DNA of 64,000 nt from Lampropedia cohaerens (GTDB taxonomy: Bacteria; Pseudomonadota; Gammaproteobacteria; Burkholderiales; Burkholderiaceae_C). The stretch covers positions 124,001 through 188,000 of the forward strand of contig NZ_LBNQ01000019.1 of the NCBI RefSeq assembly GCF_001005215.1. Reading direction: 5' to 3'. Below are positions 27,496 through 30,782 of this stretch, piece by piece (the first letter of the stretch is position 1; the number at the start of each line of letters is the position of its first letter). Position numbers and translations under genes: made by a program. The notes beneath the pieces are model-generated. The model saw only the letters and a program-made list of their open reading frames with translations, was not told the origin of the DNA and made no database searches.

Positions 27496-28932
27496 TCAGA
27501 AGCTGCCAAACAGCGTACCCAGCACAATTACGGCGACCAGCGCCAGCAGCGGAAACAGCATCGTGACCGCGGCAATGTTGAGATAGGACTGGCGGTGCGT
27601 GAGCTTGCAGATCGCCAGCAACGTGATGATGGCGCCACAGTGCGGCAGCGTGTCCATCCCGCCTGCGGCCATGACGGCAACGCGATGCAGCAGATCCGGG
27701 CTGATGCCTGCCGCCTCGGCCATGGCCAGATAGTCGGCACCCAGCGCCTGCAGGGCGATGCTGAGTCCGCCGGAGGACGATCCCGTGATGCCTGACAGCA
27801 CGTTCATCGCAATCGCCTCGGAGATCAGCGGATTGCCCGGCGCCAGATTGAGCACCGCATCGCGGATGACGAGAAAGCCCGCCAAACTGGCAATGACAGC
27901 CCCATAGCCCACTTCGGATGCCGTATTAAACAATGGCAACATGAAGCCGAACACCCCCTTGTTGACGCTGGCCTTCAGGTCCGTCCAGTGGCCCAGCCGC
28001 ACGAGCATCAGGGTTGCGCACGCCACTGTCAGCGCGATGATCAGCGCCCATAGCCCCACACGTCCGGATGGGTTGAACGCCGGATAGGATGGCGTCAAAA
28101 ACGACCAGTCCATGCTTGGAAACACCGCGAAGGTAAACACTGCGTTGACGGCCACCACCAGCACCAGCGGCAACAATGCAAGGAACACTGGCATCTCACG
28201 GGTGGCCTGCGCATCTGCGGGCTGCAGGGCGGAGCTCTCCTCCAGTTCGGCCACGCGGTGCTCGCCGAAGCCCTCCCCGGCAGCACGCGCAGCGGCGACA
28301 CGCGTGTGCAGCCACCACAGGCCGCCCAGCAAAATGATGGCCGAGCCAATCAGCCCGAGGCCAGGCGCCGCAAACGCGTTGGTGCCAAAGTACGGAATCG
28401 GAATCGCATTCTGGATCGCCGGCGTGCCCGGCATGGCGGTCATCGTGAAGGTAAAGGAACCCAGTGCGATGGCAGCCGGGATCAAGCGCTTGGGGATGTT
28501 GGCCGAACGAAACAAGTCCTTGGCGATGGGGTAGATGGCAAAGGCCACCACAAACAGCGAAACACCTCCGTAGGTCAACAGCGCGCACGCCACCACGATC
28601 ACCAACACCGCGTGCCGCTGCCCAATCACACGCAGAATCCAGCGCGACAGCGTGTAGGCCGCTCCCGAATCCGCCATGAGCTGTCCGAACAGCGCCCCCA
28701 GCAGGAAAACCGGCAGGAAACTGAGCACATAGCCCCCCAGCGCCGGCATGAAGGTTTCGGTGTAGTACGGCAGCAGCAGCGCCAGCTCGCCCGAGAGCAC
28801 CACTGCCAGCGCTGCCATCAGCGGTGCCAGCAGCAACACTGTGATACCGCGATACGCAAGAAACATCAACAGCGCCAAAGAGACGCCGATAGCCAGAATG
28901 CCCATACTCCTCCCGCGCGCTGTGAGCGCCAT
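27496..28932 (-). CDS. GntP-family permease (gluconate/hydroxy-acid:H+ symporter family)
   Basis: 478 aa with about 12 hydrophobic segments. The start of the transporter, LALLMFLAYRGITVLLLAPLMA, is typical of GntP proteins, as are GGVSLFVVAFAIYPIAKDLF, MPGTPAIQNAIPIPYFGTNAFAAPG and NVLSGITGSSSGGLSIALQALG. The family carries gluconate, 3-hydroxybutyrate and related acids; the substrate here cannot be told. A second ATG nine codons in (28905) matches the family start better, but its GGAGG is only 3 nt away, so the exact start is open. It is convergent with fabA. Confidence 0.88.
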   Translation of the reverse strand: MALTARGRSMGILAIGVSLALLMFLAYRGITVLLLAPLMAALAVVLSGELALLLPYYTETFMPALGGYVLSFLPVFLLGALFGQLMADSGAAYTLSRWILRVIGQRHAVLVIVVACALLTYGGVSLFVVAFAIYPIAKDLFRSANIPKRLIPAAIALGSFTFTMTAMPGTPAIQNAIPIPYFGTNAFAAPGLGLIGSAIILLGGLWWLHTRVAAARAAGEGFGEHRVAELEESSALQPADAQATREMPVFLALLPLVLVVAVNAVFTFAVFPSMDWSFLTPSYPAFNPSGRVGLWALIIALTVACATLMLVRLGHWTDLKASVNKGVFGFMLPLFNTASEVGYGAVIASLAGFLVIRDAVLNLAPGNPLISEAIAMNVLSGITGSSSGGLSIALQALGADYLAMAEAAGISPDLLHRVAVMAAGGMDTLPHCGAIITLLAICKLTHRQSYLNIAAVTMLFPLLALVAVIVLGTLFGSF

Positions 28933-29205: not shown

Positions 29206-30462
29206 TCAGATACCGGTAAAGGTGAAGCTGACTTCCGGCTTGCGTCCGGAAATGATTTCGGCAATCGCTTTGCCGGAGCCGCAGCCATGCGTCCAGCCCA
29301 GCGTCCCGTGGCCTGTGTTCAAGTACAGCTTGCCAAGTTTGGACTTGCCGATGTAGGGCACATTGCCGGGCGTTGCTGGCCGCAGACCAGTCCAGAAGCT
29401 GGCCAATTCCGGTCTGCTGACGCCCGGAAAGACCTCCAGCGTACGCTTGACGATGGCCTCGCAACGCACCGGGTTGAGTGCCAAGTCATAGCCGTTGAGC
29501 TCGGCCGTGCCAGCGATGCGCAACCGGTCTCCCAGGCGCGAATACACCAGCTTGTAGCCATCGTCGGTCAGGCTCACGGATGGCGCCTTGCTGGCGTCGA
29601 GCACTGGCATGGTGGCCGAATAGCCCTTGGCCGGATAGATGTCCAGATGCACGCCGACCTTGCGCGCCAGCGCGCGGCTGAAACTGCCCAGCGCCAGCAC
29701 GTAGGCGTCGGCCGTGGCGACCTCATATCCGCCCTGCTCGTTGGCGAACTCGACGCCCACCACCTCACCGCCAGCCTCACGCAGGTTCTGGATGCGCACA
29801 CCATAGCGGAACACCACACCCTGCTGGGCCGCACGTTCGGCCAGGGCCGTGGTGAACTTGTGCACATCGCCGGACTCATCGGCAGCCGTGTAGGTGGCAC
29901 CGGCCAGCTGCGGGCGGATATGCGCCATCGCCGGCTCGATCTGCAGCACCTCATCGGGCGAGAGCACGCGCCTGTCACAGCCAAGTTCGCGCATGATGCG
30001 TGCGGGCTCCAGCGCGGCCTGGAACTCCTTGGCATCGGTATAGAAATGCAGGATGCCGCGCTCAAGGTGGTCGTACTCGATGCCGATCTCCGCGCGCAGC
30101 TGCTGCAGCGCCTGGCGGCTGTAAGTGCCCAGGTTGAGCAGCTGGATCATGTTGTGGGTGGAGCGCTTCTTGGTGCACTCGCGCAGAAACTTCAGCCCCC
30201 ACATCCACTGGGCGGGGTCGGCGCGCAGACGAAACAGCAGCGGCGCGTCCTCCCGGCCCAGCCACTTGAGCAGCTTCAGCGGTGCTGCAGGATTGGCCCA
30301 CGGCTCGGCGTGGCTGACCGAGATCTGCCCCCCATTGCCGAAACTGGTCTCGCGCGCAGCGCCCGCGTTGCGCTCAAGCACGGTGACCTCGTGCCCGGCT
30401 TGTGCCAGATACCAGGCCGAGGTAACGCCCAGAACCCCGGCGCCCATGACGATGACTTTCAT
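29206..30462 (-). CDS. dadA: D-amino acid dehydrogenase (DadA family), under a glycine riboswitch
   Basis: 418 aa flavoprotein of the DAO family. The FAD-binding VIVMGAGVLGVTSAWYL is at the N-terminus; ETSFGNGGQISVSHAEPWANP is the DadA signature, and the C-terminus has WTGLRPATPGNVPYIGKS and NTGHGTLGWTHGCGSGK. It oxidises D-amino acids to keto acids with electrons passed to the respiratory chain. The start at 30462 has GGGAGAG 7 nt upstream; longer frames run into the riboswitch. A tandem glycine aptamer upstream implies induction by glycine, so glycine or D-alanine may be the relevant substrate. No dadX racemase is adjacent. Confidence 0.93.
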   Translation of the reverse strand: MKVIVMGAGVLGVTSAWYLAQAGHEVTVLERNAGAARETSFGNGGQISVSHAEPWANPAAPLKLLKWLGREDAPLLFRLRADPAQWMWGLKFLRECTKKRSTHNMIQLLNLGTYSRQALQQLRAEIGIEYDHLERGILHFYTDAKEFQAALEPARIMRELGCDRRVLSPDEVLQIEPAMAHIRPQLAGATYTAADESGDVHKFTTALAERAAQQGVVFRYGVRIQNLREAGGEVVGVEFANEQGGYEVATADAYVLALGSFSRALARKVGVHLDIYPAKGYSATMPVLDASKAPSVSLTDDGYKLVYSRLGDRLRIAGTAELNGYDLALNPVRCEAIVKRTLEVFPGVSRPELASFWTGLRPATPGNVPYIGKSKLGKLYLNTGHGTLGWTHGCGSGKAIAEIISGRKPEVSFTFTGI

Positions 30463-30519
30463 GACGGAACTCTCCCAACATGGCAGCTGCCAGCAACGCA
30501 TGCCTGGCCTGCCTTCCCG

Positions 30520-30731
30520 AGCCGTCCTTTTGCCTGAGAGATTCATCGCACCGCCCTGCTGGCCATGCGACTTGCCCCTTCGGCGGCTGCAGTGCAGAAA
30601 AGATTCCCTGCACCCAGCGCTCTCCAGCCTTTGATGATGTATCCAGTCTCTGGGACCTGAGCGTTGTCGGGCTGCGCCTTCGGTAACCCGCACCACCGAC
30701 CATGCGCCTGCGTGCGGGTTTCTCCTGGATC
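30520..30731 (-). promoter_or_regulatory. Tandem glycine riboswitch upstream of dadA
   Basis: Two glycine-type aptamers are read on the minus strand. The 5' aptamer (about 30731-30650) begins with GGAGAAACCCGCA, contains CCGAAGGCGCAGCCC and ends with CGCTCAGGTCCCAGAGA. The 3' aptamer (about 30630-30520) begins GGAGAGCGCTGGG, contains GCCGAAGGGGCAAG and ends with AATCTCTCAGGCAAAAGGAC. These are the consensus P1, core and closing elements of the class. A TATCTT hexamer at 30737-30742 is a plausible -10 box just before it. There is no U-tract after the aptamer; the gap to dadA holds a TGGCAGCTGCCA hairpin and the ribosome binding site, so translational control is more likely than attenuation. 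Confidence 0.92.
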
Positions 30732-30782
30732 GCGCGAAGATACCACGGCTGCGCCATGCGCAGTGCGGCACAATCTTCTGCA

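Follow-up and report, generated by a model that had tools for sequence, protein, structure and literature searches.

Tandem glycine riboswitch before a DadA-clade flavoprotein gene in Lampropedia cohaerens, a conserved linkage that points to glycine catabolism

The window (the whole stretch of 64,000 nt of Lampropedia cohaerens DNA that was analysed) carries on its minus strand a gene for a dadA-type FAD dehydrogenase of 418 aa (29206..30462, with the ATG at 30462 and the stop at 29206), which is assigned by the NF001933 model, the DAO domain PF01266 and a protein tree to a group called here clade A. The protein reaches 497.7 bits against NF001933, above the DadA cut-off of 383, and stays below the cut-off of NF009074, the model for DadA6-like (PRK12409) proteins (343.9 bits with respect to 494). 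It belongs to the same NF001933 family as DadA from the dadAX operon of E. coli (39.7% of identity), although in E. coli dadA is followed by dadX whereas in the window it is followed by a GntP-like permease. The ThiO glycine oxidases, which are also of the DAO family and provide its best PDB matches by sequence (7cyx and 4ysh), are weakly similar to the window protein, which stays below the cut-off of the ThiO model TIGR02352 (124.4 bits with respect to 250.8). The permease gene (27496-28932, minus strand) is assigned to the GntP family by PF02447 (29.3 bits, cut-off 22.5) and falls far under the gluconate symporter model TIGR00791; on the other side of the dadA leader lies a divergent GNAT gene. 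A conserved gene neighbourhood was rejected, since among 30 loci, inspected with flanks of up to 1.5 kb, the permease and GNAT genes were seen solely at the L. cohaerens locus and in none of the 29 others.

The leader of dadA is a tandem glycine riboswitch of the RF00504 family, in which aptamer 2 is strong and aptamer 1 borderline. This had been proposed in an earlier note made from the sequence, and the covariance search that the note called for bears it out. The downstream aptamer 2 (30512..30637, minus strand) scores 58.6 bits (E 1.5e-9) and was the sole match over the gathering cut-off of 32 in a cmscan of the window. The upstream, weaker aptamer 1 (30634..30737, minus strand) overlaps the aptamer 2 match by 4 nt and surfaced when it was searched separately, with 32.4 bits (E 3.2e-5). 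Both aptamers are above the curated score and lie adjacent to each other, before a single expression platform and a single gene, and the dadA ATG is found 49 nt past aptamer 2, in agreement with dadA as the proposed target. The first pair of P3a, which forms part of the ligand pocket, is A-U in aptamer 1 and G-C in aptamer 2, and the P1 stem of aptamer 2 is weak, with three of its eight modelled pairs being non-standard. No other RF00504 match was found at E up to 0.001 in the 41-contig, 3.16 Mb genome, which is given as 100% complete. The RF00504 tandems of gcvT operons (Bacillus, Burkholderia and Neisseria) are built in the same way, as two adjacent aptamers with the same core before one platform; the window leader differs from them in controlling a flavoprotein dehydrogenase and in having its strong pocket in aptamer 2. 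The riboswitch class is ordinary and its target is unusual yet conserved.

The expression platform (30463..30511, minus strand) has no U-tract, and an intrinsic terminator was searched for on the minus strand between 30380 and 30900 and none was seen, which makes translation the likelier level of regulation, as had been suggested. A sigma-70-like promoter was searched for on both strands of the same interval, and none was seen. The Shine-Dalgarno sequence GGGAGAG lies at 30470..30476 (minus strand), exactly where it had been placed. The palindrome TGGCAGCTGCCA, to which the earlier note had drawn attention, does sit at 30481-30492, and a signal role for it was rejected as its occurrence is at chance level: the window, with 64% GC, holds 36 perfect 12-nt palindromes, and TGGCAGCTGCCA occurs in one of 33 clade A leaders, that of L. 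cohaerens itself. The proposed pairing between GAGAG of the Shine-Dalgarno sequence and a CTCTC strand in P1 of aptamer 2 had to be given up, because CTCTC (30536-30540) lies within the 3' strand of P3 and only five pairs would be formed. In the minimum-energy fold, GACGG in the 3' strand of aptamer 2 (30522..30526, minus strand) is predicted to pair, once P1 is open, with CCGUC immediately 5' of the ATG (30463..30467, minus strand).

The linkage between riboswitch and gene is conserved in the family, where a glycine riboswitch was found in 182 of 200 genomes and some DadA-like protein in 194. Thirty clade A loci were taken as the best DadA matches listed, one per genome (the L. cohaerens locus and 29 others, 63–77% identical), and an aptamer lies upstream of dadA in 28 of these 30 best-matching loci, the two exceptions, without an aptamer upstream, being L042 and L051. 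The tandem was also found before a further clade A locus (G110), and for two more closely related dadA genes, those of G032 (61%) and G140 (56%), a search limited to the motif gave no aptamer. Among the paralogous clade B DadA genes (~53–58% identical), none of the 19 upstream regions contains an aptamer at E up to 0.1. In a tree of 60 proteins three distinct groups are recovered, clade A, clade B and the PRK12409 type, with supports of 95/91, 100/98 and 100/100 (L168 and L169 are left out of the tree, as their rows were empty); the branches of E. coli DadA and of the L. cohaerens paralogue are long and their placement is unsure. In a sample of the order (150 genomes), 29 further loci with 58–75% of identity were scanned and 12 carry an aptamer; 11 of the 12 lie outside the family and are spread over seven families. 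Since L176 starts at a contig edge, without upstream DNA, the share outside the family is given as 11 of 27 readable loci. L172 and L173, the nearest DadA genes of the order sample (75 and 73%), have no riboswitch over gathering. Additionally, in each of the 15 clade A tandems for which the matches listed include both aptamers, the lower score is that of aptamer 1, whose weakness is thus widespread in the clade; in L043 and L062, the exceptions, aptamer 1 is the stronger one.

The targets of glycine riboswitches were counted in a family sample of 40 genomes, where the 100 RF00504 matches listed make up 51 riboswitches, distributed over 37 genomes; 49 of the 51 are pairs. These riboswitches precede gcvT in 30 cases, clade A dadA in 16, a second DadA-like flavoprotein of the PRK12409 type in three, a branched-chain-type ABC binding protein in one and an unclassified gene in one (the 16 clade A genes were assigned by coordinates and the other 35 targets by tblastn with respect to four reference proteins). 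The 30 best-scoring aptamer loci of the 200 genomes stand before the PRK12409-type flavoprotein in 21 cases by blastp, before gcvT in five and before the binding protein in two; L019 and L023, which were read in the wrong frame, very probably also precede the PRK12409-type flavoprotein. A riboswitch before the branched-chain-type ABC substrate-binding protein was observed at L095 and L014 (both in G007) and at L008 (G154); this protein scores 233.3 bits against NF011933, below the cut-off of 477, and is possibly part of a glycine importer. Another tandem, L129 (G028:C131, 3905-4124, minus strand), is followed by 1.5 kb without a match to gcvT, flavoprotein or binding protein, and the closest long ORF (244 aa) gave no hit among the NCBIfam models at E 1e-30.

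The PRK12409-type group probably includes DadA6 of Cupriavidus necator, which is called a glycine oxidase in the available text of PMC11879842, where an engineered formatotroph is described as growing no faster, and with no better yield, after the further deletion of dadA6; in the part available of PMC12421819 the DadA6 observations are cited in support of a ThiO deletion meant to prevent glyoxylate formation from glycine. The reverse primer of the dadA6 deletion was found, with one mismatch, in 10 of 60 sampled genomes of the genus Cupriavidus. In nine of these ten, two aptamer cores followed by the beginning of a PRK12409-type flavoprotein gene are found ~1 kb downstream of the primer site (L085 is without them), and the five loci read at length hold both cores and the gene in all cases; the covariance model, which was run at this locus on C. 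lacunae only, confirms the tandem there. The forward primer was not found at the riboswitch locus within four mismatches, and in C. lacunae the place that matches it exactly is within a different gene on a different contig. DadA6 is accordingly considered riboswitch-linked with fair, not full, confidence, on the strength of one primer site (one mismatch) in relatives of C. necator. In these related genomes the gene beside the primer site encodes, like the window dadA, a DAO-type protein after a tandem glycine riboswitch; it differs in being a member of NF009074/PRK12409 (744.8 bits), in another clade and with ~39% of identity to the window DadA.

GcvP (PF02347) was not found in the L. cohaerens genome by a search that matched 10 of 14 control genomes, which also sets the window leader apart from the gcvT tandems, and malate synthase is present. 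In the family, GcvP is over the cut-off in 173 of 200 genomes (the six genomes without any GcvP match were identified by elimination), and 19 of the 179 well-assembled genomes are without it. Clade A dadA, called at an identity of at least 60% and near full length among the matches listed, occurs in 10 of these 19 genomes compared to 45 of the 160 GcvP-bearing ones (Fisher p 0.037, with kinship ignored). A glycine riboswitch, with two matches each, is kept by 11 of the 19; it precedes clade A dadA in nine and a PRK12409-type enzyme in the other two (G145 and G189, where the second aptamer was recognised by the core motif alone). No riboswitch was found in the remaining eight, in a 200-genome search whose stricter filters mean that weak aptamers may be missed; seven of these are also without clade A dadA, and in the eighth (G130) clade A dadA is present and the aptamer absent. 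From this comparison DadA emerges as a candidate glycine dehydrogenase, which would act in place of or beside the glycine cleavage system. The earlier idea that glycine is a substrate of this DadA becomes plausible, given that GcvP was not found, that the linkage is conserved and that DadA6 is called a glycine oxidase, and in L. cohaerens the finding of no glycine decarboxylase suggests that DadA is a glycine-disposal route replacing the usual one.

The direction of the switch was approached through predicted folding. In N. gonorrhoeae the gcvT tandem is a translational ON switch where, without glycine, a sequence of aptamer 2 masks the ribosome-binding site, as described from experiments in the available portion of PMC13104608. 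Among 12 short-platform clade A leaders, the native duplexes between aptamer and initiation region are stronger than swapped ones (-23.8 vs. -20.6 kcal, p 6e-4), and in 16 long-platform leaders the same swap test fails (p 0.29). Measured against shuffles, the initiation region also becomes costlier to open in the presence of the 3' strand of aptamer 2, with a mean rank of 0.12 in 13 short leaders (5 of 13 at ≤5%) and of 0.31 in 18 long leaders (1 of 18 at ≤5%), ranks that are not independent because the leaders are related. When the longest stretch exactly complementary to the 3' strand of aptamer 2 is considered, its length is reached in under 5% of shuffles in only four of 31 leaders (L036, L040, L054 and L168), and exact complements of 9–10 nt exist in L036, L054 and L168; the latter two contain CUGUCCUUGG, which extends into the Shine-Dalgarno sequence and is exactly complementary to the conserved CCAAGGACAG. 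The unpaired probability of the Shine-Dalgarno sequence was discarded as evidence of switching, since it does not differ between the free state and the closed proxy in 12 short leaders (0.41 vs. 0.43) and is likewise flat in 16 long ones (0.43 vs. 0.45). For some relatives these models support an ON logic, in which the 3' strand of aptamer 2 pairs with the initiation region. In the L. cohaerens leader the opening cost is reached by 38 of 200 shuffles and is not significant, the cost in the full leader is 0.8 kcal below that of the platform alone, and Shine-Dalgarno accessibility is 0.41 vs. 0.40; for this leader we infer an ON switch at about two to one.

The ligand pockets of this leader point in another direction. 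Of 30 gcvT leaders, 26 have G-C as the first P3a pair of aptamer 1 and A-U as that of aptamer 2, whereas in clade A leaders with recognisable motifs it is A-U in both aptamers in 26 of 32, and A-U followed by G-C in four, including that of L. cohaerens. The better pocket shifts between aptamers across gcvT and clade A leaders: a G-C pair is observed in aptamer 1 of L048 and L057, as in the gcvT leaders, and in aptamer 2 of the L. cohaerens leader, L036, L037 and L044. By the rule given in the available portion of PMC13104608, the pattern in the window (A-U in aptamer 1, G-C in aptamer 2) resembles the OFF type. An altered ligand specificity arising from the A-U pocket pair seems unlikely, as this pair is also present in aptamer 2 of most gcvT leaders sampled in the family. 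The ON switch of the earlier note therefore stands in part, through the aptamer-2 3'-strand pairing in some relatives, whereas the folds of the window's own leader are not significant and its pocket leans the opposite way.

Taken together, we favour, with a probability of roughly 0.58, that the tandem riboswitch acts on the translation of a flavoprotein of the DadA clade, which would function in glycine catabolism and be induced by glycine, probably through a translational ON switch. At low glycine, the aptamer-2 3' strand would be free to pair with the ribosome-binding site and the region of the start codon, and with the initiation region paired in this way dadA would be translated poorly. 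At high glycine, both aptamers would bind it and P1 of aptamer 2 would close, which would free the initiation region and allow DadA to be made. The enzyme would then most likely convert glycine to glyoxylate and ammonia, and the glyoxylate could be consumed by malate synthase. The measured activity of E. coli DadA on glycine, although poor (PMC9436414), fits this reading. Both halves of this scheme for L. cohaerens, glycine oxidation by DadA and an ON switch acting on translation, are inferred from sequence comparison and folding.

Glycine might alternatively be a signal only, whose high level marks a surplus of amino acids or peptidoglycan and induces DadA, which would then be a usual dehydrogenase of D-alanine (and of D-amino acids broadly). 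The window protein does satisfy the DadA model NF001933, its immediate neighbours (the GntP-like permease and the GNAT gene) are not telling, and the available text of PMC9436414 describes E. coli DadA as acting on glycine poorly and less efficiently than on D-serine, while treating DadA as a glycine sink. This explanation seems unlikely, as none of the 19 clade B paralogues examined carries the aptamer, the riboswitch stands on clade A dadA in nine of the ten well-assembled GcvP-less genomes that have the gene, and a second DadA-like group, probably including DadA6, is riboswitch-linked as well. Less likely still is an OFF switch by which high glycine would shut DadA off, sparing D-alanine while glycine competes in cell-wall synthesis. 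The A-U/G-C pocket pattern of the window leader is similar to that of the OFF type in the available portion of PMC13104608, and when aptamer 2 is closed a hairpin of the window's own platform is predicted over the Shine-Dalgarno sequence and start codon; against this, in L036, L037, L054 and L168 the initiation region is the predicted partner of the 3' strand of aptamer 2, in keeping with an ON logic, and gene and switch are kept together in GcvP-less genomes. The leader could also be decaying in L. cohaerens, with a barely recognisable aptamer 1 (just 32.4 bits), a non-switching platform and a linkage that is merely inherited. The folds do predict no switch for this leader, but the core of aptamer 2 is intact at 58.6 bits and a weak aptamer 1 is common in clade A tandems, which leaves decay very improbable.

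On a broader scale, and tentatively, at a little below even odds, the glycine-catabolic reading may extend to a Burkholderiales module independent of glycine cleavage, made of a tandem riboswitch and a quinone-linked DadA-type glycine dehydrogenase and recruited in two flavoprotein clades (clade A DadA and PRK12409/DadA6); in lineages that lost GcvP it would form the whole glycine riboswitch regulon, feeding glyoxylate to malate synthase. The accessible parts of three surveys (PMC3766115, PMC6944388 and PMC12452182) describe the targets of glycine riboswitches as glycine metabolism (chiefly cleavage), transport and a little serine metabolism. No paper stating a link between glycine riboswitches and dadA was found in a literature of mostly non-subscription papers, with the supplementary targets of PMC3766115 outside its scope, and dadA may already have been listed as a target; where the literature, in its accessible text, pairs the terms glycine riboswitch and glycine oxidase, the latter is thiO under TPP riboswitches. 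Through its conserved link to DadA-type flavoproteins, the riboswitch proposes a substrate that can be tested for a large and loosely annotated group of enzymes, and hints at a second way by which bacteria dispose of glycine. It is also relevant for Cupriavidus synthetic formatotrophs that use the reductive glycine pathway, in which glycine oxidation has been examined as a possible wasteful sink, as described in the available text of PMC11879842. A last observation concerns the long platforms, many of which (L047, L049, L052, L053, L058, L060, L061, L169, L170 and others) carry a GCTAT...ATAGC hairpin, perhaps a repeated intergenic element that was inserted into the expression platform.
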